Origin: Cephalotus follicularis
Lineage: Eukaryota > Streptophyta > Magnoliopsida > Oxalidales > Cephalotaceae
Direction: 5' to 3'
NCBI GenBank assembly: GCA_001972305.1
Contig: BDDD01002277.1
Span: forward strand, 164,155-228,154
Length of the DNA: 64,000 bases
In this document: piece after piece, positions 13,353 through 62,240 of the stretch
How the letters are laid out: each line of letters begins with the position of its first letter
Position numbering within the stretch: position 1 is the first letter of the stretch
Position numbers and translations under genes: made by a program
The notes under the pieces: model-generated
Database searches by the model: none
Told to the model about the DNA's origin: nothing
Seen by the model: the letters and a program-made list of their open reading frames with translations, nothing else

Positions 13353-14932
13353 TGCGATGTCTGTAGATATAAAATGAGGACAAGAAGCATTAAATAAGAT
13401 AAATTCAATTTCAATGTTTAAAACCATAAAGATTTGGTATTTAATCTTTTAGGTACATATGCCTCTCAGGCTCCCACTATTTTTCGCGAATCCCATAATC
13501 CTCATAAATACGGGAGACGAGAAACAACAATCCAAATCTCATGGATCTCATTTCTGAGTGGGGATTGGTGTCCTGCAACATATTCAGTATAACCTTGATG
13601 GGGGCCAAAACACTATAGTGAATCTTACAGTTAGGCAAAACTCTTGCCAACCATACAATAGTATGATTCCTGATCATTGATTTTGCCTCTAGTGTACATA
13701 TGATCTTGACGGGGGCCAAAACATTCACATCCATAATTCATCTGTATGCACAATCTCATGTTCGACTTATACAGATGTACCCAGAGAAGGCAAGTCTTGA
13801 CGGGGGCCAAAACACTCACAATCTCTAAGAGCATCTATATCAGTAGTAATGGTAGAAGGCAATGACTGAGCACTATCGTGTGCCCGTTTCGCTTTAACTT
13901 GATATCATGTGATAAATGAGGAATCATATTTATTATTAGCCAACCCGTTATTAATCAAATTACAAGTAGATTGCATATTATGGAGAGGTCGTTAAACATG
14001 CATCACATACATATTAAAAACTAATGGCAGGTTATGGACTTTACTACTGCAACTTGTTTGACTCTCAAACAAGCTGCTTGTTTCATTCCTAGGTATGTTA
14101 TTACAATCATACATTCACTCAAATACATGCATGGGTCTTGTAATATCTTTGTTCTTCTCAAAATTGCTTCCGCTGCGACTCTCGCTCTTCAATTACATAA
14201 ACTAACTATAAACTACAGAAACCTTGAATTAAATCAAGGGGGGTTACAAGGAGGTTAAGAAGAATTAACGATGCATATCAAGAAAGAGAAGAGAGACATG
14301 CAAGTCTCAAAAATTATTACAACTTGAAAAATATGAACATAAAACATACATTCAACAATTGAATTAAATGAAATAAAACTAGGTGAAGTCCATAACCCAA
14401 CTATCATGCAAAAATATAATTCAATCTCATTGAATTATGTAATAATGTTGACAAATATGCTTCTATAAATATAGACAATTAATTTGGGTAAATAAGGAAA
14501 TTAAAACTCTTTTTCAGCCTTGAAAAAGGCTAAAACGCATTTATAAAACGCGTAGGCACAGCTTAGAACGCATTAATGCGGTCTACGGTTACCAGTTAAG
14601 CGTCGACGCTTCCGTCTACGCTTTGTGCAAACATCCACGCTTTAGCCATAAGTGTCGACAGTTTTCTCAAAACGTCAGCGCTTAATACTTAAGCGTCGAA
14701 GTATAAGCTTAAGCGATGATTGTTTTCTCAAAAGACCAGCGCCTAATGCTTAAGCGTCGACGGTTTGTGCAAACCGTCAGCGCTTAGTGAATAAGCGTCG
14801 ACGGTTTACTCTAAACTGTCAGCGCTTTACACGAACAAGGACGATACATCACATGTTTGTCTCACAATTTAACCCAAACAATTCAAGCATATCATCATAA
14901 AAAAATTCTAACTGCACATATGCATCAAATTC
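13353..14932 (-). other. Copia-1 5' leader with two repeat systems
   Basis: This is about 1.6 kb between primer site and gag with no gene. It holds three copies of TTTTGGCCCCCGTCAAG-type motifs (minus strand; 13593-13611, 13704-13722, 13795-13813). Nearer the primer site is a cluster of GTCGA hairpin modules (14602-14830). Copia-2 has the same two systems in the same order, so they are family features and not chance. Confidence 0.7.
14602..14830. repeat. GTCGAC hairpin-module cluster in Copia-1 leader
   Basis: At least five GTCGA cores occur (near 14603, 14654, 14695, 14756, 14797), mostly as AAGCGTCGA. They alternate with GTCAGCGCTTA phrases and T/A-rich complementary spacers such as CGGTTTGTGCAAACCG. 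The units can fold into short stems on either strand. Confidence 0.7.
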
Positions 14933-14947: not shown

Positions 14948-16137
14948 TATTGGAACCTTATGGCGATTAAACAATCAATTAAAATCTAGAGGCATGCATC
15001 CTAATAAGAAATCGTCATCATTTCATGATCAAAAACCATAAATTTTAATCTAGGATCATTTGAGCATATATATACAGTCAGAAATACATATATGAAATAA
15101 AGAGGAGCAGGCGGAATATATTCACAAAATGGAGCAGCTCCTTCCTTGATAATCACTGCTTCTAGCCTCCAAGATTAGCAGGCCGCCAAGATATCCACAC
15201 CAAGCTTCAATCACCAACACCAGACTTCACAAGTCAACAACTCTTGTTTTTGGGTTATTGTGTTTTTCTTTTTCTTGAGAAAACCAGAGGAAAAACATGT
15301 TGAGAGACAGACACTCTTAAGAGAGAAAGACGTGTTATCTGTTTTTATTGCTAGATAAAAAGGTGTTAACACTAATCCTCTCAATCTCCTATTTTAGTTA
15401 AGTATCTTACTTAACATAAATAGTCTTTCTTTCAAAAAATTACTTACTTTCCTTAATCACATTAAGGACATTTAATAAATGTAATTAAAAAATGATATCC
15501 TAATTATTTTTCTCTCGTACGGTGTAGCAAAATATTAGCTTGTATAGTGTGTGACATTATGAGTTCACTCTCACGCTGACTGTAGGATTAAATCGTGACA
15601 CACACGATTATCTGATTAGGTATTTATTATCACATAAAAAGAAAATACCTTTTCTGACTCTTTGAATTAAAACTCTTTTGATTCTTTTCTTCCAAAATTA
15701 ATTATCAATTTAATCTCGGGCATCCTACAAGTCGACATCGACATCTAGCAATGCATAACGACCCCCAAGTAATATGAATTATCTGCGAACCACTATTCAC
15801 AGGTACATGCACGTATAGTCCCTCCATTGACAATGCTCTGATTAAATCTAGGGTACGGATTATGTTAGACCCCAATAATTTAATCTTTAGCCACGTGACT
15901 ATCTATCGTCAAACTTAAATAATAGTAGAGGTGCCCCTCTAATATTTTACCAATGATGTCAGACAGTTGACATCGTGACTAGCCTGGACAGGAACTAAAT
16001 CGCTAACGAAAATCATCCCGATCATAATCTTCTTTTACTATAAGCAATGGATTCATTATTGCACGTTCACATGTCTCCATACATAAGCATACTATGTCCA
16101 ACTAATGCCCGTATACATTTCATTGAATATGTATTTA
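14948..16137 (-). repeat. Copia-1 5' LTR, first part
   Basis: This begins at TTGGAACCTTATGGCG and matches 7626 onward. It is interrupted at 16137 by Copia-2 and resumes at 25298. The two parts sum to about 1.71 kb, equal to the intact 3' LTR. Confidence 0.9.
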
Positions 16138-17915
16138 TGTTGGAACCTTATGGCGATTAAGCAATAAAATATCTAAATGCATAAAACCCTAATATATATG
16201 TTGTGTTATCATCTCATGATTATCAAGCCATATGGTTCATTTCCAGGATCTTTTGAACATACATATATAGTTAGATATAAATCATTAGGGAGGAGCACGC
16301 GGAATTACTCACATGAATGGAGCGGCTGCTTCCTTCTTCCTATGTGTCTTATTGCTTCTAAAAGCACAGCTACTTGTTGAACATTTGAAAACGGTTCTAG
16401 CTTCCAAGTATAGAAAGCCTCCAAGGTATCCACACCAAGTTCCAATCTCCAACACAAAAGATTCAGAAGCTATCAACGCTTGATTGTCTATGAGAGAGAG
16501 AAAGGGGGCGGCTAGGGTTTCTTTAGAATAGAGCAAAAGTGTTCTATTTCCAAAAAATTCTAATTGAGAATAGGGAGATGTGTTTATATATTTGCTGCTA
16601 GATAAATCCTACTTAAACACAACCTCCTAATTCAACAAGTCTTCTTTACAAGGAATTCCTTTCCTTTTAAACTTATTTCTTTCCTTAATATAATTAATCT
16701 CATTAATTATATATATATATATAATCTCATTAAATATAATTAGAAAATAATATCCCAATTATTTTTCTCTCATTACGTGTGGGAAATATCAGCCCGTATT
16801 GTGTGTGATCCTACGGGTTCACTATTACATTGGCCGTAGGATTAAATTGTGACGCTCACAATTTATCCAATTAAATATTTATTATCTCATAAAAAATATT
16901 CTCTTTGACATTTCGAATTAAAACTCTTTTAATTCTGTTCTTCCAAGATTAATTTATCAATTTAATCTCAGGCATCCTACTGGTCGACATCGATATCTAG
17001 CAATGCATAACGACCCCCAGGTAATATGAATAATTTGCTAACCTCTATTTACAGGTACATGCACGTATAGTCCCTCCATTGACAATGCTCTAATTAAATC
17101 TTCGGTACGGATTATGTCAGACCCCAATAATTTAATCTTTAGCCTCGTGACTATCTTTCATTAACCTAAATAATATTAGAGGTGCCCCTCTAATATTCAC
17201 CCAATAATATCACACTCTTGATATCATGGCTAGCGTGGCCAGACGTTTAATCGCTAACAAAAATCATCATGAGCATAATCTTCTTTTATTAGAAGCAATG
17301 GATTCATTGTTGCCAGTTGACATGCCTCCATACATAAGCGTACTATGTCTAACTAATGCATGTATACACTTCATAGAATATGTATTTAAGTATCATCAAA
17401 ACACAACACCCTATGAACAAGACATCCAGTGACGGCTCATGTCCAAGGACCACATGCACTGCTGTAAAACTAGAATTCTGTCTGACATGTATGTAAAACT
17501 CCATACAGATATTCTATGAACAGTCACCTTCAGTGAACTCATTAAACGAGCACCCACGTAGTTGTCATAGCATCGTTCATGCGAGTGAATGTGAGATCAG
17601 TCACCCTCTGCTTACCGATCTGACAGTACGTGCTGGTCTATCCGGATTGATCATGCCCTGAGTGCCAATCCTATGACCAGGAAGATTCGAAATAAAGTAT
17701 ACCGAGATTCCAACTCTCACATCATGATCTCATCATGAACTTGGTTCTCTAACTTTATTCTAAGACATTCATTTACAATTAATAAAGCATGTATTAAAGA
17801 AATGAACCCATAGCCATTGATAAAACATAAACATATTTATTGAATCTATAAATCGTTTATACAAGATATAGTAAATACAAGCTCATCACTGGCTTCTATG
17901 ACTTTATCTCTAACA
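16138..17915 (-). repeat. Copia-2 3' LTR (1778 bp)
   Basis: TG...CA termini, followed by the polypurine tract (17916-17929 on the minus strand). Paired with 23517-25292. Confidence 0.92.
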
Positions 17916-17944
17916 ATCTCCCACTAAGTGCTAAAGCCAATTGC

Positions 17945-20885
17945 CACATGTCTCACACGCATAGCATCAAGGTGTCTGTCAAAGACCGCCTTTGGTAGTG
18001 CCTTAGTAAGCGGGTCTGCAATGTTGTCTTCACTTGGAACTCATTCCACTTTTATATCTCCATGATCAACGATTTCATGTATAAGGTGAAAGTGTCTGAG
18101 AATGTGTTTAGACTTTGAGTGCGATCTAGGCTCCTTGGATTGTGCTATCGCTCCATTGTTATCACAGTATAATGATACCGGATCATCAATGTCACGAACT
18201 ACACCCAAATCTTCGATGAACTTTTTCATCCATACACCTTCCTTGGCAGCTTCCGATGCCACATGTATTCAGCTTCAGTCACTGAATCTGCAGTGGTAGG
18301 CTACTTGGAACTCTTCCAGCTCACTGCTCCACCATTCAAGGTGAACACAAACCCCGATGTTAATTTTGAATCATCCATTTATGTCTGAAAATTAGAGTCC
18401 CTCAATCTTCAAACCTTTTCCTCCATACATTAAGAATAAATCCTTAGTCCTGTTAAGGTACTTGATGATATATTTGACAGCCTTCCAGTGACTCTCACCT
18501 GGATCTGACTGATATCTGCTTGTAACACTTCCAGCATAGGCGATATCTGGTCTAGTGCAAAGCATAGCATACATGATGCTTCCAATTGCTGAAGCATATG
18601 GAATGTGCATCATCCTTTGTCTTTCTTCAGCTGTCTTGGGAGACATCTATTTAGAAAGTGAAATTCCATGACATAGAGGTAGATAGCCTCTCTTGGAATT
18701 TTCCATGCTAAACCACTTGAGCACTCTGTCAATGTACAAAGACTGGGATAACCCAATCATCGTTTTTGATATATCTCTATAGACCTTTATTCCCAAGATA
18801 TAGGAAGCTTCTTCCAAGTCTTTCATGGAGAAAACTGTGGATAACCAGGCCTTTACGTTCGACAACATGATCACATCATTTCCTATAAGGAGTATGTTGT
18901 CAACGTATAGGACTAGAAAAGTCATTGAGCTCCCACTAACCTTTTTATACACACATGGTTCATATCGATTCTTAATGAAATCAAAGTCTTTGATTGTCTC
19001 ATCGAATCGGATGTTACAACTTCTCGAAGCTTGCTTTAGTCCATAAATGGATTTCTGAAGTTTGCACACTTTCTGGTCCTCACCAGTGGATATGAAACCC
19101 TCAGGTTGAGTCATATATATGTCTTCATCAATGTTTCCATTGAGAAAAGCAGTTTTCACATCCATTTGCCATATCCCATAGTCAAAATATGCAGCTGTAG
19201 CAAGTAAAATCCAAATGGATTTAAGCATGGCTAAGGAAGAGAAAGTTTCCTCATAATCAATCATTTCCAGTTGATTGTAACCTTTGGCTACGAGCCTAGC
19301 TTTAAAGGTCTTAACCTTTCCATCGTCTCCAAGCTTCCTTTTGAAAATCCATTTGCAAACTAAGGGTTTAACCCCTTAAGGTGCATCCACTAGATCCCAA
19401 AATTTTTTGGAGTACATGGATTCCATTTCAGAATTCATGGCATTGAGCCATTTCTCCGAGTCCATATTGCATATGGCTTCTTTGTAGTTTATCGGATCAT
19501 CATCCATGAAATTTACCTCTTGGGTACCTTCAATGACAAAACTGCCATAGTATCTCTCAGGTTCCCTTGGTAATATGGTAGTTCTACGTAGAGGTTGTGT
19601 ATCTGTGGTAGGTGACATTCCAGGAACATCAATTTGAACAGGATTGGATAGTCCCTCAACTTGTGGTTCTTTAGATCGTTCATCTAATTCTATCATACTC
19701 CACTACTGTCTTCCAACAGGAAGTCCTTTTCAAGAAAAGTAGCAAGCCTGGATACAAATACTTTGTTGTCAGGTGGATAATAGAAGTAATATCCCCGTGT
19801 TTCTTTAGGATATCCCACAAGTTTACATTTTATGGACCTAGATTCCAATTTATTTGCTTTTACATGCTTAACATATGCAGGGCAGCCCCATATCCTTAGA
19901 TAACTAAGATTGGGTTTCTTCCCATTCCATATCTCATAATGGGTCTTGGGAGCAGATTTCGTTGGAGTCCTGTTTAATAAGAGAACAGCAGTCTCTAAAG
20001 CATAACCCCAGAAAGACAGTGGAAGTCCAGCATCACACATCATGCTACTCACAATGTCAAGCAATGTACGATTTCTCCTTTCAGACACACAATTATGCTG
20101 TGGTGTTCCCAGAGGGGTCCACTAAGAGATAATCCCATTATCTTTGAGATAAGTTAAAAACTCGGTGGAGAGATACTCACCACCTCGATATGATTGAAGA
20201 GTCTTCAGACTTTTACCAGTCTGTTTTTCTACTTCATGTCTGAATTTTTTGAACTTTTCAAAGGCTTCAGATTTGTGCCGCATTAGGTACAAATAACCAA
20301 AACGAGAATGATCATCCGTAAAGGTTATTAAGTAGGAATATCCATCTCTAGCATCAACTGTCATTGGTCCACATACTTCAGTATGTACTAGACCTAGCAG
20401 TTCTGGGGTCCTTTCCCCTTTCCCTGTGAAGGGAGATTTGGTCATTTCATTTATATAACCAAGTCTGCAATGCCATAGGTAGGATTGATTAACTTCATCT
20501 CTCTTTCTTTTATTGTCTTTTTGCATATTGAAAACAGTCTCATGTTTACTCAATATATATAATCCATCATGAAGGAAACATTTTGCATGAATCATATTAT
20601 TAAATAAAATAGAACAACACTTGTCTTTAAAAATAATATGAAAACCTTCAGCATCTAATCCTGGAATAGAAATAATATTACGCAAAATGCGAGGCGAATA
20701 AACACAACGTTTGAGTTATAAACTCTGTCCCAAAGGCAACAAAATATAAACCGATCCTATAGCTATGGCGTCAACAATGGAACAATCCGTAAGCCGTAGA
20801 TCTCCCTCACCCTTCTCAAGATTTCTTCTGTCCGTGAGGGCCTGCAAATTAGAACATATGTGAGTACCACATCCGCTGTCTAAAA
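17945..20885 (-). pseudogene. Copia-2 pol, fossil
   Basis: Minus strand, in order: protease motif DSGCGTHICSN near 20880; integrase zinc region (WHCRLGY) near 20480; core with [15 protein letters not shown] and FTDDHSRFGYLYLMRH; SERRNRTLLDIVSSMM near 20088; the linker with [20 protein letters not shown] with QMDVKTAFLNGNIDEDIYM, LYVDNILLIGND and the CTRPDIAYA segment near 18540; RNase H near 18260-17950 with LYCDNNGAIAQSKEP. It is closely parallel to Copia-1 pol and is broken. Confidence 0.9.
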
Positions 20886-21832
20886 TCCAGAAAGATGAAT
20901 CAGAAATATTCATATTCACCTCTATATAAGACAAATATGGCATACCTTTACCAATTGATCTAAGGAATGTCACACAGTTCCTTTTCCAATGTCCTGGCAT
21001 CCCATAATGGAAGCACGATCCCTTAGCAAGAGCTTCTGAGGCAGACTCCTCAGCAGGTGCAACTCTTGTGACAGTGTTCGTCGTAGCAACAACTTGCTGG
21101 TTTGTCTGATTATGTGGTCTGGCTTTTGCTAGTTTGAAAGATGCCGGTCGTGGTGGTATCGTCCCATTTTTAGTCTTTCCCTTCTCAAGGTTGGACTTGC
21201 CTTTCCCCTTGGGCCTACGAGATTGTTCTACCATCATGACTGGCACCTTTCCCTTATTCATGTTCACTTCGGCTTCCCTCAGCATGTTTAGAAGATCAGA
21301 CAGAATAGCTGATATCCTATTCATGTTAAAATTGGTGATGAAACCAGAGAAGGAAGGTGAAAGCGAATGAAGGATCAGATCTGTGTTTAATTCAGCATCC
21401 TGAATGATGCAAAGAGCAGCAAGACATTCAATCGCATTGATCATCTTAAGCACATGATCATTAACAGAAGATCTTTCAGCCATTTTAGTGCCACATAGCT
21501 CAGTAGTGAGTTGGAGCTGAGCATTCCTACTAGTCTCTCCGTATAACTCGCGAAGATGTAGGATAATTTCCCTAGAGTCTCGCATTGATTCATGCTGGAC
21601 TTGTAGGGCATTGCTCATCGATGCTATTAGGTAGCTTCTGACTTTCTTTTCATCAGCCACCCATTTCTTATAAATGACATGATCTTCGGTTGAGGCATCT
21701 TCAGCAGGCAGTGCTGGCATAGGGGCCTATGTCCTCGGAATTCAAAACTATTTTGACATTCCGTAGCTAGTCCACATAATTTGGACCTGTCAACTGATTC
21801 TTCTCAAGAATTACAGTGAGGGGGTTTGTCAT
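20886..21832 (-). pseudogene. Copia-2 gag, fossil
   Basis: It starts at 21832 with MTNPLTVILEKNQLTGPNY, the same start as Copia-1. The helical gag core contains LQLTTELCGTKM and HSLSPSFSGFITNFN. A Lys/Gly-rich linker follows, then a CCHC-like knuckle (CFHYGMPGHWKRNC) just before protease. It is decayed but more continuous than in Copia-1, with about 330 codons open. Confidence 0.88.
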
Positions 21833-23501
21833 TGCGATTTTTGCAGATATAAAATAAAGACAATATTCAGATAAATTCAATTTAAATGTTTATAACCATA
21901 AAGATTTGGTCTTTAATATTTTAGGTGTTTTTCCTCTCAGACTCCCACTGTTTTACGCGAATCCCATAACCTTCAAATATTATAGGAGACGAGAAACAAC
22001 AATCCAAGTCTCATGGATCGTATTTCCGAGTGGGGATCAGTGTCCTACAATATATTCAGTATAACCTTGACGGGGGCCAAAACGCTATACTGAATCTTGT
22101 AGTTAGGCAAACTCTTGCCAACCATACAATAGCATGATTCTCGATCATCGCTTTTGCCTCTAGTCTACACATGACCGTGATGGGGGCCAAAACGTCATAT
22201 GTATTCTAGTCAAGTTTAACCTACCATGAAACACATGATGAATCAATGAATGTAAATCTTGACGAGGGCCAAAACATTCACATTCATATGTATGTACATC
22301 TCATGTTCAACTTATATAGATGTTCCTAGAGAAGGCAAGCCTTGACGGGGGTCAAAACACTCACAATTTTCAAAAGCATTTATATCAGTTGTAATGGAAG
22401 AAGGCAACGACCAAACACTTTCTTGTGCCCGTTTCACTTTAACTTGATATCATGGTATAATTGAGGAATAATAACATAAGTCTCATTATTATTATTATTA
22501 TTAGCCAACAATTTTTTAATCAAATTACAGGTAGATGGCATATTATGGGGAGACCGTTGGAACCTCAAGAGCAAAATTTAGACATGCATCACATACATTC
22601 TATAAACTAATGGCAGGTTATGGACTTTTACTACTGCAATGTTTGACTCTCAAACAAGCTGCTGGTCTCATTCCTAGGTATGTTATTACAATCATACATT
22701 CGCTGCCATACATGCATGGGTCTTGTAATATCTTCGTTCTCCTCAAATTTGATTCCGCTGCGACGCTCGCTCTTTAATTACATAAACCAACTATAAACTA
22801 CAGAAACCTTGAAATAGATCAATGGGAGTTACAATGAGGTGAAGAAGAATTGTATATACAAATTAAGAGAGAGAAGAGAGACATGCAAGTCTCAAAAGTT
22901 GTTACAACCCGAAAATATGAAAAATAAAAACCATACATTCAACACTTGAATTAAATAAGACAAACTAGGTCAAGTCCATAGCCATACCGTCATGCATATT
23001 CAATATCATTGAATTAACTAACAATCTTGACAGATATGTTTCTACAAATATAGTCAATTGATTGGGTTATTAAGAAAAAAGCCTTTTCCGTATATTAACG
23101 CCAAACCGTCGACGCTTTTAGACAAAGCGTCGACGCTTTCGTCGACTTATGGCTTTGTTTTATAAGTGTAAGCTTCGACGTGTTTCTCAAAAGCGTCGAT
23201 CGATTTACTGCATTGGCGTTGACGCTTTTCTCAAAAGCATCGACGCTAAGTGTATCAACGCTTTAGCGCGTAAGCGTCGATGCTTTTCTCGAAAGCATCG
23301 ACGCTTATGCATCTCGGTGCGATTTGCTGCAGTGGTATCACGCGTAACTGTCGACGGTTTGCTCGAAACCGTCGACGGTTTTGCGACTACAGGGAATCGC
23401 AAATTGCATCACATGCTTCCGTCTCACGGATTAAACCCAAACAATTCAAGCATATCATCAACAAACAACAAGTTTCTAACAATATATATGCATCAAATCC
23501 G
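21833..23501 (-). other. Copia-2 5' leader
   Basis: About 1.7 kb without a gene. Four copies of the GGGGGCCAAAAC motif occur at 22065-22083, 22174-22193, 22256-22274 and 22340-22358. The GTCGAC hairpin cluster is at 23107-23385. Short open frames across the cluster arise from the repeat itself. Confidence 0.7.
23107..23385. repeat. GTCGAC hairpin-module cluster in Copia-2 leader
   Basis: This is the densest cluster in the window, with at least seven GTCGA cores. A pair near 23348 and 23369 reads GTCGACGG, TTTGCTCGAAA, CCGTCGAC, which is a perfect 11-bp stem with a 5-base loop. Another reads GACGCTTTTCTCAAAAGC followed by ATCGACGC. Core-to-core spacing is often 20-21 bp. Confidence 0.8.
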
Positions 23502-23513
23502 GCTATGATACCA
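23502..23513 (-). other. Copia-2 primer binding site
   Basis: The minus strand reads TGGTATCATAGC, matching initiator Met-tRNA in all but one position, three bases from the LTR edge at 23517. Confidence 0.75.
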
Positions 23514-23516
23514 ATT

Positions 23517-25292
23517 TGTTGGAACCTTATGGCGATTAAGTAATAAAATATCTAGATGCATAAAACCCTAATATATATATTGTGTTATCATCTCATGATT
23601 ATCAAGCCATATGGTTCGTTTCCAGGATCTTTTGAGCATACATATATAGTTAGATACAAATCATTAAAATATCTAGATGCATAAAACCCTAATATATATA
23701 TATATTGTGTTATCATCTCATGATTATCAAGCCATATGGTTCGTTTCCAAGATCTTTTGAGCATACATATATAGTTATATAAAAATCATTAGGGATGAAT
23801 AAACTACAAGCTATCAACGCTTGATTGTCTATGAGAGAGAGAAAGGGGGCGGCTAGGGTTTCTTTAGAATAGAGCAAAAGTGTTCTATTTCCAAAAAATT
23901 CTAATTGAGAATAGGGAGATGTTTTTATATATTTGCTGCTAGATAAATCCTACTTAAACACAACCTCCTAATTCAACAAGCCTTCTTTACAAGGAATTCC
24001 TTTCCTTTTAAACTTCTTTCTTTCCTTAATATAATTAATCTCATTAATTATACTTTTAATCTCATTAATATATAATTAATCTCATTAATTATATATATAT
24101 AATTTCATTAAATATAATTAAAAAATAATATCCCAATTATTTTTCTCTCATTATGTGTTAGAAATATCAGCCCGTATTATGTGTGATCCTATGGGTTCAC
24201 TATTACGCTGGCCGTAGGATTAAATTGTGACGCTCACAATTTATCCAATTAAATATTTATTATCTCATAAAAAATATTCTCTTGGACATTTCGAATTAAA
24301 ACTCTTTTACTTATTTTCTTCCAAGATTAATTTATCAATTTAATCTCAGACATCCTACTGGTCGACATCGATATCTAGCAATGCATAACGACCCCCAGGT
24401 AATATGAATAATTTGCTAACCTCTATTTACAGGTACATGCACGTATAGTCCCTCCATTGACAATGCTCTAATTAAATCTAGGATACGGATTATGTCAGAC
24501 CTCAATAATTTAATCTTTAGCCTCGTGACTATCTTTCATTAGCCTAAATAATATTAGAGGTGCCCCTCTAATATTCACCCAATAATATCACACTCTTGAT
24601 ATCGTGACTAGCGTGGCCAGACGTTTAATCGCTAACGAAAATCATCCTGAGCATAATCTTCTTTTACTAGAAACAATGGATTCATTGTTGCCAGTTGACA
24701 TGCCTCCATACATAAGCGTACTATGTCTAACTAATGCATGTATACACTTCATAGAATATGTATTTAAGTATCATCAAAACACAACACCCTATGCACAAGA
24801 CATCCAGTGATGGCTCATGTCCAAGGACCACATGCATTGCTGTAAAACTCTAATTATGTCTGACATGTTGTAAAACTCCATACAGATATTCTATGAACAG
24901 TCACCTTCAGTGAACTCATTAAACTAGCACCCACGTAATTGTCATAGCATCGTCCATGCGAGTGAGTGTGAGATCAGTCACCCTATGCTTACCAATCTGA
25001 CAGTACGTGCTGGTCTATCCGGATTGATCATGCTCTGAGTGTCAGTCCTATGACATGGAAGATTCGAAATAAAGTATACCGAGATTCCAACTCTCACATC
25101 ATGATCTCATCATGAACTTGGTTCTCTAACTTTATTCTAGGACATTCATTTACAATTAATAAAGCATGTATTAAAGAAATGAACTCATAGCCATTGATAA
25201 AACATAAACATCTTTGTTGAATCTATAAATCGTTTATACAAGATATAGTAAATACAAGCTCATTACTGGCTTGTAGGACTTTATCTCTAACA
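23517..25292 (-). repeat. Copia-2 5' LTR (1776 bp)
   Basis: TG...CA. It carries an internal direct duplication of about 125 bp near its start (phrase TCTAGATGCATAAAACCC at about 23550 and again near 23671) that is absent from the 3' LTR, so the two LTRs reached near-equal length by different changes. Confidence 0.9.
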
Positions 25293-25297
25293 ATTTA

Positions 25298-25819
25298 AGC
25301 ACCATCAAAACATAGTACCCTATGCACAAGACATCCAGTGACGGCTCATGTCCAAGGACCACATGCATTATTGTAAAACTAGAATTCTGTCTGACATGTA
25401 AGTAAAACTCCATACAGATATTCTATTTTCCATTCACCTTCAGTGAACTCATTTTTAAGCAATGAGCACCCACGTAATTTTCATAGCATCAACCATGCGA
25501 GTGAGTGTGAGATCAGTCACCCTCTGCTTACCGATCTAACAGTACGTGCTGGTTTATCCAGATTGATCATGCCCTGAGTGTCAATCCTATAACCAAGAAG
25601 ATTCGAAATAAAGTATACCGAGATTCCAACTCTCACATCATGAACTTGGTTATCTAACTTTATTCCAAGACATTCATTTATTATTAATTAAACATGTATT
25701 AATATAATGAACTCACAACCAATGATAAAATATAAACATCTTTATTGAATATAGATCGTTATGTACAAGATAGACTAAATACAAGCTCGACACTGGTTTG
25801 CAGGACTTTATCTCTAACA
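25298..25819 (-). repeat. Copia-1 5' LTR, second part
   Basis: This continues the LTR from the ATTTA duplication (25293-25297) and ends TCTCTAACA. It matches the last 520 bp of 7626-9340. The GTCCA target duplication follows at 25820-25824. Confidence 0.9.
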
Positions 25820-36742: not shown

Positions 36743-36935
36743 TTCTTTGTAAGTTGTACAAATTCAAGAATGTCAATAATATTGAATTTTTTCTCAAAAA
36801 ATGTTTGCAAAGATCATAGTTCCAAGTTTGCAAGGGACCGGAAGCCCAATGTTCATGTCCTTAAACCTTTGAACAGCCGTCGATCAACTCCCTCAACCAT
36901 GAAACTTTAATATAGGCATGCCCGACCATGCTCCC

Positions 36936-37143
36936 AGGGGAGCACAAAAGCCTCCCGCCAGGGGAACACAAAAGCCTCCCTCCAGAGGAGCACTAAAGCC
37001 TCCCGCTAGGGGAGCACAAAAGCCTCCCGCCAGAGGATCACTAAAGTCTTCTGCTAGGGGAGCACTAAAGCCTCCCTCCAGGGGAGCACTAAAGACTCCT
37101 CTAGAGGAGCACCGAAAACTCCTCTAGGGGAGCACCTAAGACC
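36936..37143 (+). repeat. 24-bp minisatellite in Tat-B
   Basis: About nine units of the form AGGGGAGCACAAAAGCCTCC plus CGCC; the first six are exactly 24 bp apart (36936, 36960, 36984, 37008, 37032, 37056) and later ones are 23 bp. Because 24 is a multiple of three, one frame reads RGAQKPPA repeats across 36918-37127. Tat-A has only degenerate traces at the matching place. Confidence 0.85.
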
Positions 37144-47164: not shown

Positions 47165-49270
47165 TAACTTATTTTTAAAACCATACCTAGGCTTTTTTTT
47201 GACATGTTGCGTAATGTCCTTTTTCACCACAAAGCTTGCCCTTTCGTTTCTTTGGGGCCTCTATCCCAGCTGGAATCCTTGAAGGATGCTTTGGATGACC
47301 TTTGGTCTTCACTGTTTTAGGATCTCGAATAAATATTCCAGGAGTGTGACAGGAAAGAGCAATAAAATTAACTTCACTACCAATCCAGTAGGTGCAATAT
47401 GGTTGTCAATCAAACTCGTTTCATCAAATTTACCAAAGAAACTATTCAGAAAAGAATTCAACTCTTTATATGTGCATATTGAACTTGATGCTTTATTTAC
47501 TGCTTTGTTGGCTAGCGTTGTAAGAAACCATTTCATAATTGGTGTTACCTCATTTTTTGTTACTTCGCTTGCAGAAACTCTATTATCCATTAGATACCTA
47601 GCATGAATTGTCCATCTCTTTAAAATATATCGATCGAGAATGACATTTAAATGCTTCTTGACCATGATATGAAGGATATGCTTGCATAAGTAACCGTCAG
47701 TCTCAAACTTTGCACAATCACATTTGCAAGTGACATCCTCTGACTCATCATACGTAACAATGCACCATTTCCTCCTCTCCTCACTACATAGCCCTACAGA
47801 GTATGTTGTAGTACCACACTTACTCACCTTCTCATGCCAACAATCAATGATACTCTTGAACTCTTCTTGAAACAACTTGAACATCACTCTTGTATAAAAA
47901 TCTCTAGCTGATTACTCCATCGAAGACGTACCTATTAGAACAGCTTTTGAATTCGTTGTCATGTAATCCTCATGCTCTTCCGCTTGACGATGTGATTGCA
48001 ATGCCCTGTCATATTGTTCCACGAATTCATGCGAAGGAGTGTTTGAATTTATGAGCCAATCAAAAAATGCATTTATACTTTCACTCTGCCCACTAAACGT
48101 CATATCTGCAACGAATGTATCTTTGAGAAAAGCAGGTACCCAATGAAATTGCAGGTTCCACATTTTTGTTAACCAACTCTTATCTTCTATATGATATTTC
48201 TCAACCAATTGTTGCAATCTTGTTTCACTTTCATCCACATTTTTGCTGTTTCCCCATCTTCTGTAATCAATCAAGAACTCACTTGTATTATCCCGCAATG
48301 CATAAACATTCTCCACAAGATGGTTGTGGATATGCCATGAACAAAACCGACGTCGAGTCATTGAGAATATTTTCTTAATTGCATTACACATCACTCCATC
48401 CATATCGGTAATAATTGCTGCAGGGGCTTTATCCAACATACAAGTTAACCAGTGCTAAAATAACCATACAAATGTCTCTTCAGTCTCATATGCTAATAAT
48501 GCGCATCCAAAGAGAGTGGATTGCTATGATGATTTACCCAGGTAAATGGTGTGAAGGGCATCATAAATATATTCGTTTTATATGTGACATCAAACAGAAT
48601 AACATCACCAAATATAAAATATTCATTTATTGACCTTGAATCAGCCCAAAACATAGACCGTAATGTCCCATCGGTGTCCAACTCCATAGCAAAATAGAAG
48701 TTAGGATCTAATGCCATATGTTTCTTGAAATGCATAGCTACTAGAATCCCTTCCTTCCCTACATTATTCATCATATATTCTCTAAAATGGTCTATCACAT
48801 GTTGTGGAGTGATAAAGGTATTCCCACTTGTAGCATCAATGGCCTTAGCAATTTTAGAAGGCCCCATCCCATAACTATGGAGTTGATCCATCAAGTTCTT
48901 AGCTACCAGATTTTTATGAGATTTATTATGCGAACGGTGCTTCGAAGCTCTCCTTGGTGTGTCAAGAGTGTGACTATGTTCTTCTACAAATCCTGTTACA
49001 ACTCATTTCTCATTTTTTCTCTAAAGAACATCTATTTTTGCTTTACACCCTTCTATTGTATCACAACGACGATGCAAAACTTCACGTCCATCTTCCTTTT
49101 CATTGCTTAAATCTTTGAATCCCGCTTTATCGCATCAAATTTTTTCCATATCAATTCTTCCATAGCTTGCGACCTGGTACTTAAGGATTTTCTTATTCCA
49201 AATCCTTCACGTAGCGCATAACAATTATAAAAGTTATACACATCATCAAGAGTATTATGGATTTCCCCAC
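47165..49270 (-). pseudogene. MULE transposase (FAR1/FHY3-like), decayed
   Basis: The minus strand starts near 49250 with a FAR1-type DNA-binding region (VYNFYNCYALREGFGIRKS). The MULE DDE domain follows: FDVTYKTN (first Asp) near 48580, ITDMDGVMCNAI (second Asp) near 48410, CSWHIHNHL near 48335, and SGQSESINAFFD with the likely catalytic Glu near 48080. The SWIM zinc finger CKCDCAKFETDGYLCKH is near 47730. At the C-terminus a nuclear-signal-like KKRKGK is followed by a knuckle remnant, CGEKGHYATC. Stops and frameshifts interrupt it, for example a frame change near 48500 and TAG in LF*HW near 48465. Because TIRs flank it, it is a transposon gene and not a host FAR1 gene. Confidence 0.85.
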
Positions 49271-50710: not shown

Positions 50711-51055
50711 CTCAAAATTATTTTTCCGATATAATATAATATGACATAATATTTATTTATATTATAAATATATATTTTTAATATATAAAAATAATAAAAT
50801 ATATATTTATTATTTACTTAATAAATGAATATATAATATCTAATGTAATATATATTTTTTTATTTATGTAAAAAATATATATTTCTATATTATATATATA
50901 TATTAATATGATACATGTAAACATAAATTTATATTTGCATTTATATATAAATTTACATTTATGTATAAAATATAATATAATATATATTTATTTGTTATTA
51001 TATATAAATAATATAATAAATACTTCTTATATTTATATAATGTAAAAATATATAC
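50711..51055. other. AT-rich tract between MULE and Tekay-like element
   Basis: Almost pure A/T with ATATAT runs and no gene. It continues at 60182 after the Tekay-like insertion (TATAC duplication). It is probably the centre of the split foldback. Confidence 0.5.
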
Positions 51056-52274
51056 TGTCACACCCCGTTTTCACGTCGAGACAACATTAAAGCGGTAAAG
51101 CAATCAACGCAACATAATTCAGCTTATGCGATTTTACGTATAATCAAAAAACTTTCAATAGCGGAAACAATAACATGAAATAAGCTGAATTTAAATATGT
51201 ATCACGCATCCCATATTACGTGATACCTAAAATGTTTATATAAAAACCCAACATCATTGTCGATCGCCCATAAACGGAGCGTGATAATACAGTACGAAAT
51301 GAAATAAACCACGGTATCCATCAATACATGACAGATATAAAATCCACGTTACAATAATCCAATTAACAAAATCATTGTTCATTAATCCAGATAATATAAT
51401 GATAGAGAAACAATTCAGTCTTCTCCTTAAGTCTCCTTGCGTGCTCCATATCAAATCCCACTCCATCAATCTGTTACAGTAGGGGATTAGCTTTTGTCCT
51501 CACTCGGCTAAGTGAATAAATTCATAAATGCAGTTTGAGGTATATGATAATGAGTCTCATGAATGAATGCATCATGATGCAGTACAGTATATATATATCG
51601 CAGTATATACATATGTAAAAGTATATGCATGTTCACAGTACAGGTATAACCTCATAAGGCTACATCAACACAAGCAGTAAGTATGCCCCAAAAGGAACCA
51701 GACAAACAAGACGTCACGACCGTCGCCACCTCCTGGCCCCAACGTCACGCACTCTTACCCCATCCCCGTTTGCGAACGGTTTGAGGCAAGTCCTCCGTAT
51801 AGGTTGCTTAGCACGACGGCTAAACAATCAACAGGTTACTAGCACAACAACTAATAATCAACAAGCACAAACACCGTACAGTACAAGTTAAGCAATAAAA
51901 TATAATTACTTGATCAAATATATTTGTTTAAAATATATTATTTCGTTCTCAGGTTGTGATAAGTTATAAAACTTAAAACAATATAGTTCGATTGTATAGC
52001 CAATCCTTTAAACATTTCACTGTCTTTGGAAAAATACTTTCCCCAGTCATTTGAAAAAATATATATATATTTGGCAAATATACATTTTCGTACAATTAAT
52101 GATTATAATAATCATGCAAACTTTTACAAAATGGTTAACACTTTTTAGCAATCAACCACAATTCAATTCACAGTTCAGTAACAATGCACACATATGCTCA
52201 GAATGTATCTAGGATCGTTTCTAGAGTCGTTTCGGGTCTAACGGGTCCCATTCGAGTAAAACTTTTCCAAACAG

Positions 52275-52710
52275 GGGAATAAGCATCGACGCTTATCCCC
52301 TGGGCGTTGACGTCTTTACCCTAAGGCGCCAGCGTTTCGTGTAGTTATTCCCAAGCGTTTTAGGACCAAAGACATCGATGATTTTCCAAAGACGTCGATG
52401 TCCTTATGATACCAGGAGGTATCAGTTCGCAAATCTTGATTCCAGGGGGAAGAATCCGACCCTTAAACCTTCACACAAACAATCTCATCCTCTCACCGTG
52501 TAAGGTGAGCTACTGGTTATCAAAATATGTAACCAAATATCAATTCATGAACAAGTCAGGCAATCAAAAGCAGGCCTTCATCGTCCACAACGAACACTAA
52601 GGTTCTGCAATTTTCCAGAAAAGGCGTCGATGTTCTACCAAAACATCGACGTCTGTCGTTTTCACACAAGAAGGCATCGACGTCTTTATGTAGGCGTCGA
52701 CGCCTATTCA
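52275..52710. repeat. GTCGAC modules in Tekay-like 3' LTR, first clusters
   Basis: Examples are GCATCGACGCTTATCCCC, AAAGACATCGATG paired with AAAGACGTCGATG, GCGTCGATGTTC paired with AACATCGACGTC (a hairpin), and GGCGTCGACGCC. Core spacing is often about 20-22 bp. Confidence 0.7.
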
Positions 52711-53464
52711 GCCCAGAACGTCATCTCCATGGTTTTAACACACCAGACCATTACCAATCCATCCTTTACACAAGCCAATTCGAATATTCATGTAATTTAC
52801 ACATGCATGGTTACTCCGTACATCACAGCAGTCATCACAACAAATCCAAAGATTTCAATTCATCCATTAACATGCAATTCATCAATGTCATTTCATTATC
52901 TTAACCCTCAAAATGCATGTATAAGATCATCACTTTCCCCTATCTTGTTGTTCCAAGTTAGGAACTAGAAAGTCCACCCCTTTAAGTCCGGGAATCCGGT
53001 CTCAGTAGCTCCAAGATTTTTCCACAGTTGCAATCCCAGGAGCTCCAAGGTTCGAAATTGGTGGTATTCTTCTCACTTTTTCCTTCTGGTTTTCTCCCAA
53101 CTCTCTGGTCTCTTTCCTTTTTCTTTCTCACAGTGTTTAGCTGAGAATGAAGGGAAGGAAGAGGTGTTTTATGCTGGCAGGAATCCTCTCTTTCTCCCTT
53201 GGTTCACATGCACCCATACACACCTGTGCTCTCCTATCTCCTTCCTGTTTTGGCTCCTTTCCTTTCCCTTTCTGCAGGTTGCAGATGAAGATGACACATC
53301 CTTTTGCATGCACCAGGTGAAGGACACGTTTTGGAGTATGCCTGGTACCACACCAGCATCATCAACACGTCGCTTTGTGCATGTCAAGATGCCTGGATGA
53401 TGCCTCAAAAGCTGTCCATTTGCATGTTATTTTGTCAGTGTATAACGTGCCCGAGGTTTGGCGT

Positions 53465-53605
53465 TACGCATCGACGTCTTCTTTAGACGTCGACGTCTTC
53501 TCCATTTTCTACGTGAGGGCGTCGATTGTGCCTGTGCATGCGCTACGTGAGTTTGGTCCCGTAAGCGTCGATGCTTTCATTATGGCGTCGACGTCTTTAT
53601 ACCAA
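53465..53605. repeat. GTCGAC modules in Tekay-like 3' LTR, second cluster
   Basis: CATCGACGTCTTCTTTAGAC followed by GTCGACGTC, then GGGCGTCGATTG, AAGCGTCGATGC and GGCGTCGACGTC. The same cluster is in the other LTR at 59872-60002. Confidence 0.7.
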
Positions 53606-53879
53606 TACTGCGCCATTTTAGCTTAACAATTGTTTTAACATTTCTTTCCCAAAATCAATATTATTAGGGTTTGGAAAACATCATCAACGTCGAAATCTCT
53701 GACATTTTCATCAATTCAATTATAAGATTACATCTTAAAACGAAATATTACAATAACAAAAATCCCGGGCGTTACATCCACCACTCCTTCAAGAAATTTC
53801 ATCCTCGAAATTAACACAATACTAAAACAAATGCGGGTAACGTTCCCGGATATCATCCTCACGTTCCCAAGTCACTTCA

Positions 53880-58557: not shown

Positions 58558-58561
58558 CTGC

Positions 58562-60181
58562 TGTCACACCCCGTTTCCACATCGAGCCAACATTAAAGCG
58601 GTAAAGCAATCAACACAACATAATTCAGCTTATGCGATTTTACGTATAATCCAAAAACTTTCGATAGCGGAAGCAATAACATGAAATAAGCTGAATTTAA
58701 ATATGTATCACGCATCCCATACTACGTGATACCCAAAATGTTTATATAAAAACCCAACATCAGTGTCGATCGCCCATAAACGGAGCCTGATAATACAGTA
58801 CGAAATGAAATAAACCACGGTATCCATCAATACATGACAGATATAAAATCCACGTTACAATAATCCAATTAACAAAATCATTGAATCTCATCCTCTCACC
58901 GTGTAAGGTGAGCTACTGGTTATCAAAATATGTAACCAAATATCAATTCATGAACAAGTCAGGCAATCAAAAGCAGGCATTTCATCGTCCACAACAAACA
59001 CTAAGGTTCTGCAATTTTCCAGAAAAGGCGTCGATGTTCTACCAAAACATCGACGTTTGTCGTTTTCACACACGAAGGCATTGACGTCTTTATATAGGCG
59101 TCGACGCCTATTCAGCCCAGAACGTCATCTCCATGGTTTTAACACACCAGGCCATTACCAATCCATCCTTTACACAAGCCAATTCGAATATTCATGTAAT
59201 TTACACATGCATGATTACTCCGTACATCACAGCAGTCATCACAACAAATCCAAAGATTTCAATTCATCCATTAGCATGCAATTCATCAATGTCATTTCAT
59301 TATCTTAAAACTCAAAATGCATGTATAAGATCATCACTTTCCCCTACCTTGTTGTTCCAAGTTAGGAACTAGAAAGTCCACCCCTTTAAGTCCTGGAATC
59401 CGGTCTCAGTAGCTCCAAGATTCGTCCACAGTTGCAATCCCAGGAGCTCCAAGGTTCAAAATTGGTGGTATTCTTCTCACTTTTTCCTTCTGGTTTTCTC
59501 CCAACTCTCTGGTCTCTTTCCTTTTTCTTTCTCACAGTGTTTAGCTGAGAAGCAAGGGAAGGAAGAGGTGTTTTATGCTAGCAGGAATCCTCTCCTTCTC
59601 CCTTGGTTCACATGCACCCGTACACACTCGTGCTCTCCTCTCTCCTTCCTGTTTTGGCTCATTTCCTTTCCCTTTCTGCAGGTTGCAGATGAAGATGGCA
59701 CATCCTTTTGCATGCACCAGGTGAAGGACATGTTTTGGAGTATGCCTGGTACCACACCAGCATGCTCAAAACGTCGCTTTGTGTATGTCAAGATGCCTGG
59801 ATGATGCCTCAAAAGTTGTCCATTTGCATGTTATTCTGTCAGTGTATAACGTGCCCGAGGTTTGGCGTTACGTGTCGACGTCTTCTTTAGACGTCGACGT
59901 CTTCTCCATTTTCCATGTGAGGGCATCGATTGTGCATGTGCATGCGCTACGTGAGTTTGGTCCTGTAAGCGTCGATGCTTTCATAATGGTGTCGACGTCT
60001 TTATGCCAATACTGCATCGTTTCAGCTTAACAATTTTTTTTAACATTTCTTTCCCAAAATCAATATTATTAGGGTTTGGAAAACATCATCAACGTCGAAA
60101 TCTCTGACATTTTCATTAATTCAATTTTAAGATTACATCTTAAGACGAAATATTACAATAACGAAAATCATGGGCGTTACA
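58562..60181 (-). repeat. Tekay-like 5' LTR (1620 bp)
   Basis: TGTCACACCCCG...GGGCGTTACA. Shorter partner of 51056-53776; both ends match closely. Holds the GTCGAC modules at 59028-59110 and 59872-60002. Confidence 0.93.
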
Positions 60182-60417
60182 TATACGTATTATAAATATA
60201 TAAATATATATAAAGATTCGATTATATTTACAAAAAATAATCGCATTATTTCATTCCATTCCAATATTGAATTAGTCACACCAACAATGGAATGGTAATC
60301 CTCAGCATAATTTCATACTAACAACCAAACAGAATAATCCTTATTTCATTCCATTCAATTCAATTTCATCCCATTCTCTATTCCATCATAAAAAGATTTT
60401 TTGTACCAAACGTCACC
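60182..60417 (-). repeat. Right arm of the split foldback/MITE
   Basis: Begins with the TATAC duplication and AT-rich tract, then repeated TTTCATTCCATTC phrases, and ends GTACCAAACGTCACC. Inverted relative to 42141-42338. Confidence 0.5.
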
Positions 60418-61435: not shown

Positions 61436-62140
61436 TCACAACTTATGGTATTTTCCTTTTATGGTGATGAATGATATGACATGTATATTATATTATGGTA
61501 TTTTCCTTTTATGGATGTTTATGGGTTATGAGGGTTCAATAGAACCTAGGGCGAGCTTTTGGGTTTTTCACCCAATGAAGCCTATATATAGGCGAGTAAC
61601 TCTCTTTCCTTCTCATTTTCATTTCTCTTTCCGATTCTAGAGAGATAGTGAGAGAGGGAGTTAGAGAGATAGAGGCCAGAATCAAGCAAAGAAGGAGCCA
61701 TTTGATTCGTGGTAGGATATAGAACTTGAAGGAAGGATCAAAACAAGGTTTCAATAGCAAATCCTTCCAGATCTGCATCTCAATACTTTTGAGGTAGGTT
61801 CTATGTATATGCTTTGAATTCATGCATATTGATAGAATGGAATGGTTATATGTTTATTGATTGATAGATCTATGCTAGATGGATGAGCTAGGCCAATTGT
61901 TATGGTTAACTGCTACTTAAAATGGGAATCAGAGAGAGAATTGAGAGTTTTAGGTTTATAGGCCTAACCTCTTCTGTCTCTCGAGTATGGGTTTATGGAC
62001 ATGGATCTTAGTGTTTTAAAAGTGTTTTTAAGTTGTGATCGACCATGGGGGCTTATAGCTTTCCTTGGACCGAGTTTTAAACGGTTTAAACTAGATTTGA
62101 ATCAATTTTCGGACTGTTTGACGAACTTTCTACGACAGTC
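61436..62140 (+). promoter_or_regulatory. Promoter-like region with TATA box and leader, owner unknown
   Basis: CTATATATAG at 61582-61591 is followed by a pyrimidine/GA-rich leader (61605-61690) and a possible GT donor (TTGAGGTAGG near 61790). Just upstream, ATGGTATTTTCCTTTTATGG occurs twice, 48 bp apart (near 61446 and 61494). No gene follows on the plus strand. It may be part of an LTR of an unclassified element or an orphan promoter with 5' UTR. Confidence 0.35.
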
Positions 62141-62143
62141 AAA

Positions 62144-62240
62144 CCGTCGATGCTTTGGCTAAAAGTGTCGACGCTTTGTGAGTGTTGACTGTCGACATTT
62201 TTGTGTAAACTGTCGACATTTTTGTGTAAATTGTCGACGT
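62144..62240. repeat. GTCGAC module array with near-regular 21-bp spacing
   Basis: GTCGA cores start at 62146, 62167, 62191, 62212 and 62233, with spacings of 21, 24, 21 and 21. The intervals contain TTTTTGTGTAAA phrases. It resembles the Copia leader clusters but adjoins a different Copia fragment. Confidence 0.8.

Follow-up and report, generated by a model that had tools for sequence, protein, structure and literature searches.

Why should plant retrotransposons of different families carry the same short palindrome, repeated at the same spacing? The question is raised by a 64,000-nucleotide stretch of the Cephalotus follicularis genome (hereafter the window), for which a preliminary description reported clusters of GTCGAC or ATCGAC cores about 20-21 bp apart in the leaders of two Copia elements, in both LTRs of a Gypsy element and in a further segment near 62 kb. 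All of these clusters are present. GTCGAC occurs 27 times in the window, compared with a mean of 5.2 and a maximum of 12 in dinucleotide shuffles, of which none out of 100 reached 27, and RTCGAC, counted on both strands, occurs 86 times (shuffle mean 27.5, maximum 41). RTCGAY pairs with a separation of 19-22 bp were counted 14 times, where 300 local order-1 simulations gave 0.11 on average and never more than 2; every one of the 14 falls within the clusters originally named. The idea that the module might be no commoner than in shuffled sequence thus fails by a wide margin, here and in the genome counts given below. The spacing of 20-21 bp holds for the clusters overall, but it is not intact in the Copia-1 array, which contributes none of the 14 pairs and has four GTCGAC separated by gaps of 52, 102 and 41 bp.

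Are the host elements indeed unrelated? The two Copia elements, initially taken for separate families, belong to one (presumably Angela-like), as their gag and leader are 81-83% identical. Copia-2 (16138..25292, minus strand, with RVT_2 and copia gag domains) is nested in the 5' LTR of Copia-1, whose BLAST match covers 14950-16137 and resumes at 25293-25819 beyond the insertion, which is bordered by a 5-bp duplication, ATTTA, at 16133-16137 and 25293-25297. Their arrays occupy the same location, between 5' LTR and gag, on the minus strand: at 14598..14830 in Copia-1 (four exact GTCGAC, the other sites decayed) and at 23104..23385 in Copia-2 (five GTCGAC, four one-step variants and one further RYCGRY), the latter between the gag ORF (20716-21726) and a sequence near 23500, spotted by eye, that we take to be PBS-like. 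The arrays diverge faster than the sequence around them; no alignment of Copia-1 with Copia-2 runs across them, and a looser threshold recovered only 16-37-bp matches there. Near the edge of the Copia-2 5' LTR, positions 23544-23791 hold a 125-bp tandem duplication (94% match), each copy of which is matched by the 3' LTR with one stretch only. In contrast, BLAST at E 1e-3 links the Copia, Gypsy and third-family regions of the window to one another by nothing more than 17-39-bp matches, all of them inside modules (for example 23269-23286 with 53560-53577, 18 of 18 identical). A single nested or recombined source therefore accounts for Copia-1 and Copia-2 alone, and the earlier claim of a module common to unrelated elements is upheld for the others.

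The Gypsy element, which we take to be Tekay-like, has RVT_1, Gypsy-type gag and protease domains; Pfam, run on the three Gypsy ORFs given to it, reported rve and SH3_Tf2-1 and no chromodomain. Its LTRs, on the minus strand and delimited by BLAST extents, span 58561..60182 (5', about 1.62 kb, with TG..CA ends about one base inside) and 51055..53777 (3'), and TATAC stands at both ends of the element. The 5' LTR contains array 1 at 59872..60002 (LTR positions about 181-311) and array 2 at 59028..59110 (about 1073-1155); the 3' LTR contains array 1 at 53465..53605 and, at 52275..52710, array 2 (52620-52710) together with further sites (52280-52400), all on the minus strand. These further sites lie inside a 1,103-bp segment (51378-52480) of the 3' LTR; it is absent from the 5' LTR but shared with a relative (L041), and because the relative has it, the 5' LTR probably lost it by deletion. 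The array of the third family (62144..62240, plus strand; five sites with spacings of 21, 24, 21 and 21 bp) marks the edge of an LTR-like family, of which 61471-62181 is 76-77% identical to stretches of three loci (L001, L002 and L004) that were retrieved for carrying a 16-base motif and that each have an array at the same edge. In the 12 kb around L001, the pol and gag pieces of the window matched only a Copia gag elsewhere in the region, so this copy may be a solo LTR. With promoter positions placed from TATA-like sequence rather than transcripts, array 2 of the Gypsy 5' LTR perhaps lies downstream of the transcription start, and the third-family array lies 563 bp downstream of TATATATA at 61583.

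The phenomenon is larger than the preliminary description conveyed. In 1,577,397,061 bases (1.577 Gb) on 9,746 contigs, GTCGAC-N15-GTCGAC, corresponding to the 21-bp spacing, occurs 105,145 times compared with 1,224 for the reversed-pattern control, and pairs at 16-bp spacing occur 68 times compared with 72; such counts take in many related copies and so measure abundance, not independent events. We also drew a 160-kb sample of 20 stretches (3,561 N) at fixed offsets in ten contigs, which is arbitrary and not strictly random, since the contigs came from carrying the 16-base version of the motif somewhere. Here GTCGAC is found 122 times against 14.3 expected (8.5-fold, the top ratio of the 64 palindromic hexamers), with at least one in 18 of the 20 stretches, and 83 of the 122 sites have an RYCGRY partner 19-22 bp away. 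From the 12 exact 21-bp pairs one would project about 118,000 for the whole genome, which agrees with the direct count. The spacing of distinct RYCGRY pairs is most often 20-21 bp (64 and 116 pairs); other maxima lie at 41-43 bp (35, 41 and 23) and 48-53 bp (11-21), and each spacing from 23 to 40 bp has 0-11 pairs. Most of the arrays we examined fall outside coding sequence, within LTR retrotransposons (the Copia family, several Tekay-like Gypsy families and the third LTR-like family), at positions that vary from the leader to the beginning of the LTR or further down it; pol-like coding sequence (30,974 bp) has seven GTCGAC, compared with 115 in the 125,465 bp outside. Single-linkage clustering by flank similarity sorted the 71 arrays of the loci used into 12 groups, the biggest of which comprises 48 arrays, including those of the window's Gypsy element and many relatives, and six of which consist of one array each.

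What is conserved in these arrays is a CG-centred core on near-random spacers. Neighbouring 21-bp units are identical at a rate of 0.80-1.0 in the core, a figure raised by the choice of RYCGRY sites, and of 0.27-0.32 at spacer positions 11-16, which that choice leaves unaffected and where chance is 0.26. Among 99 in-phase one-step variants, 81 are transitions outside the CG, 12 are CpG transitions and six are transversions, and genome-wide the in-phase partner is GCCGAC in 39,383 cases versus 16,100 for the CpG-decayed GTTGAC. The modules had been said to keep their CpG sites, and they do so, although methylated CpG usually mutates fastest.

Beyond the hexamer the conserved flanks, CA..TG or AAAG..CTTT, differ between families. 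One class of arrays has the consensus CAGTCGACTG with little conserved beyond it (class I), another the consensus AARNCGTCGACGNYTT (class II). Class II predominates in the Copia leaders, the third family and the Gypsy element of the window, and the Gypsy relatives L016 and L027 (integrase 69-71% identical to the window's) and L042 (87%) are class I; L053 (85%) is not. The arrays of L027 occupy about 147-228 and 1,125-1,213, measured from an LTR start located by eye, compared with 181-311 and 1,073-1,155 in the window's element. Among close relatives, then, the flanks switch and the core and its position stay. A third flank type is seen in a Copia relative (L003), where 14 RYCGRY sites at 2342-2753, right of the leader array, are rich in AAAGACATCGATCC and AGACATCGACGTCTTT units.

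Some arrays also have a direction. The 106 in-phase sites that could be anchored by a preceding A and a following T, with up to two mismatches allowed, comprise 45 GCCGAC, 44 GTCGAC and 17 others, and every one of the 17 arrays that have two or more GCCGAC, or two or more GTCGGC, shows a single variant polarity. This is a set that is mostly class I (three arrays, two in L046 and one in L054, have other flanks) and that includes related copies (L005 and L009, L020 and L022). The motif of these arrays reads CAG(T/C)CGACTG in one direction. Where ATCGAC variants occur, as in the class II arrays of the Copia-2 leader and the window's Gypsy element, polarity is mixed; a polar motif is seen in arrays with at least two GCCGAC-type variants and not in the clusters first described. 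The polarity agrees with element sense in L016, L027 and L042, is ambiguous in L036 and opposes it in L037 and L048 (one variant each) and L012 (two variants, with a short integrase hit), so that strand-biased mutation is an unlikely source of it.

How might such arrays serve the elements that carry them? With a CG-centred core, random spacers, a spacing of two turns and, in part, a single direction, an array looks like a row of protein-binding sites. We therefore favour, at about an even chance of being right, the view that the modules are cis-regulatory arrays, that is, rows of putative sites at which a sequence-specific DNA-binding protein of the host would bind, maintained by selection wherever copies of these several unrelated LTR families are active. 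A shared host-factor target was among the explanations first put forward; it is the best fit of the readings considered here, but an inferred one. We envision a scenario whereby a distance of 20-21 bp, or two helical turns, would place the sites on one face of the DNA, several protein molecules could then bind side by side, and their binding would drive or protect transcription from the LTR.

Which protein might this be? GTCGAC and GCCGAC, the alternating cores of the arrays, both fit listed CRT/DRE cores, and an AP2/ERF factor of the CBF/DREB type is thus a candidate, on the strength of the motif only; its binding would make the elements responsive to cold or drought. The PLACE entries quoted in one source include GTCGAC, the CRT/DRE core that barley HvCBF2 prefers, RYCGAC, the site of barley CBF1/CBF2, and RCCGAC, a DRE/CRT core (PMC4222965). 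Another source reports an association of DREB sites with plant LTRs and with stress-activated maize elements, and mentions ONSEN, in which heat-shock elements in the LTR act as host-factor sites that make the element stress-responsive (PMC11656987). Candidate host transcription-factor sites in an LTR are common to ONSEN and our elements; ONSEN, however, is a single element answering to another factor, whereas here one motif is common to unrelated families. The agreement with CRT/DRE sites extends to both cores of the polar arrays, with GYCGAC in 89 of the 106 anchored sites and oriented (in all 17 arrays with at least two GCCGAC-type variants). Yet ACCGAC, a standard DRE core, makes up one of the 106, a near absence that a CBF/DREB factor does not predict and that counts against it; the conserved flanks are wider than a short DRE core needs, and the arrays here are regular, two-turn rows at more than 100,000 pair sites. 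The general view of binding-site rows also has points against it, namely that Copia-1 lacks an intact 19-22-bp pair, that the arrays have no single position and that one stem test, described below, leans towards hairpins.

The closest known design is that of the repeated motifs of Sireviruses, many short palindromic boxes clustered in LTRs that are element-specific on a shared CGG-CCG core, with one exception listed (Tnd-1), and whose PLACE matches are mainly stress-related (Bousios et al. 2010, PMC2829016); that article calls them Sirevirus-specific and absent from classic retrotransposons. The arrays described here are likewise repeated short palindromes clustered in the LTR. Their core, however, is RYCGRY (CAGYCGACTG, AARNCGTCGACGNYTT) and not CGG-CCG, their hosts are a Tekay-like Gypsy element, which is not a Sirevirus, a Copia family and a third family, and they have a preferred spacing of 20-21 bp and, in one class, a fixed polarity. 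The Vitis Sirevirus motif, CGGTCGACCG, does contain GTCGAC (PMC2829016). A precedent for sharing between unrelated elements is provided by the maize Sirevirus palindrome, reported as the commonest motif of structured regions in Helitrons (PMC10760457). A search of one open-access library returned no published account of such arrays in Gypsy or non-Sirevirus Copia elements: tandem GTCGAC palindromes of LTR elements led to the Sirevirus article alone, RYCGAC in retrotransposons to a wheat WRKY paper, and the matches listed for the bare motif letters concerned unrelated work, presumably through SalI cloning sites. Palindromic boxes have been held to be private to Sireviruses, whereas here Gypsy and Copia elements within a single genome have a related design, built on the same core and with the same preferred spacing; the shared core and spacing, and in part the polarity, point to convergence on a single factor. 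A bolder version, about which we are doubtful, would be that one trans-acting factor, host or element-encoded, jointly switches or shields a large share of the genome's LTR families, unrelated Copia and Gypsy lineages having independently built two-turn arrays of one CG-centred site with flanks tuned per lineage. These arrays touch on the long-standing question of what plant retrotransposons answer to and how unrelated ones activate together.

Conceivably, the sites are instead recognised by a VANC-like anti-silencing protein, encoded by a transposon, that strips DNA methylation from the carriers of the motif. In two reports, VANC targets are the motifs YAGTATTAY or AGTTGTMC, arrayed in tandem in VANDAL DNA transposons that themselves encode the binder (PMC5735166, PMC10398659); the arrays are non-coding and vary between related elements, and the VANC6 motif is also found in an unrelated element, AT9TSD1 (PMC5735166). 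Rows of this kind would, by analogy, be able to serve anti-silencing. The likeness is considerable, as short motifs here also form divergent tandem arrays in non-coding DNA, related Gypsy families carry different flanks, and the retention of CG fits hypomethylation. Nevertheless, the motifs are others, and VANC is described for DNA transposons with a binder of their own, not for LTR elements, whereas the arrays reported here sit in LTR elements. We regard this alternative as quite unlikely.

A decidedly improbable alternative is that the DNA palindromes are a by-product and that selection acts on RNA hairpins in the transcribed leader, for dimerisation, packaging or translation control. The stems that were quoted initially do fold well, with z scores of -7.7 and -7.2 for the two Copia leaders and of -3.7 and -6.0 for two further arrays, but strong folding is what any row of palindromes must give. 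The Copia leaders should be transcribed, whereas array 1 of the Gypsy LTR sits 181-311 bp into the LTR, probably in U3. If a hairpin were kept, a change in one arm should pair with a complementary change in the other. For the T-to-C change, the direct combination GCCGAC-N15-GCCGAC occurs 35,594 times genome-wide (17,577+18,017) compared with 682 for GCCGAC-N15-GTCGGC, one of the two compensating orders; the reversed pattern (14,865) is no valid control for these pairs, because CAGCCG itself recurs every 21 bp in the arrays. Among 221 distinct sampled pairs, neither compensating order was found, compared with 21 direct pairs. For the G-to-A change, giving ATCGAC, direct pairs number 49,240 (24,794+24,446) and compensating pairs 25,039 (10,431+14,608), although under independence the compensating sum should equal the direct count. 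RNAalifold detected no net covariation in four Copia-family leaders (an unfavourable term of +5.06, with a kept two-sided change in four of 69 pairs), and when the palindromes were compared site by site, class I showed no covariation and class II only a little, except at one position (0.68 versus 0.45 at three bases from the hexamer). One narrow test leans the other way: of 597 places matching GTCGACGSTTT-N3-6-AAASCGTCGAC, 529 are compensated and 68 are not, where independence at the 6:33 ratio of GG/CC to GC/GC would leave about 186 uncompensated (the 50 listed places comprise six GG/CC, 11 mixed and 33 GC/GC). Because the count includes related copies, three of the six listed GG/CC places sharing one spacer, this speaks only weakly for one stem type having been maintained or copied. 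Hairpins with complementary spacers thus fold strongly but are mostly not supported as a generally conserved feature.

Could the arrays be neutral, a slippage-prone 21-bp unit hitch-hiking in LTRs and passed between elements by recombination? TRF identifies 21-bp units at 23170-23247 and 62188-62238, and the fast divergence of the Copia-1 and Copia-2 arrays relative to their flanks would fit such a minisatellite. Over the sample, however, repetition of the whole unit, spacer included, is not found, even if single arrays such as 62188-62238 do repeat it. Spacer identity is no higher than chance even though the core persists, variants in phase seldom alter the CG, the dinucleotide that methylation should make the first to go, and the similarity between the window's families ends at the modules. 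The minisatellite idea, raised at the outset, may describe how arrays grow; as a full account we give it very little credence. Least probable of all is that the arrays, being rich in hairpins, supply the small RNAs and silencing of the host and are kept only insofar as they are also regulatory, as proposed for maize Sirevirus palindromes, to whose clusters an excess of small RNAs maps according to one report (PMC10760457): the arrays do fold strongly, but a pure host recognition signal should be lost, not kept.

Two other features of the window were observed in passing. A G+C-rich 24-bp tandem repeat of about seven units at 36934-37135, with the consensus CCAGGGGAGCACTAAAGCCTCCCG, is unrelated to the GTCGAC arrays. 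At 47309-49002, a broken transposase-like gene is represented by three minus-strand ORFs, the middle one of which matches Pfam MULE.
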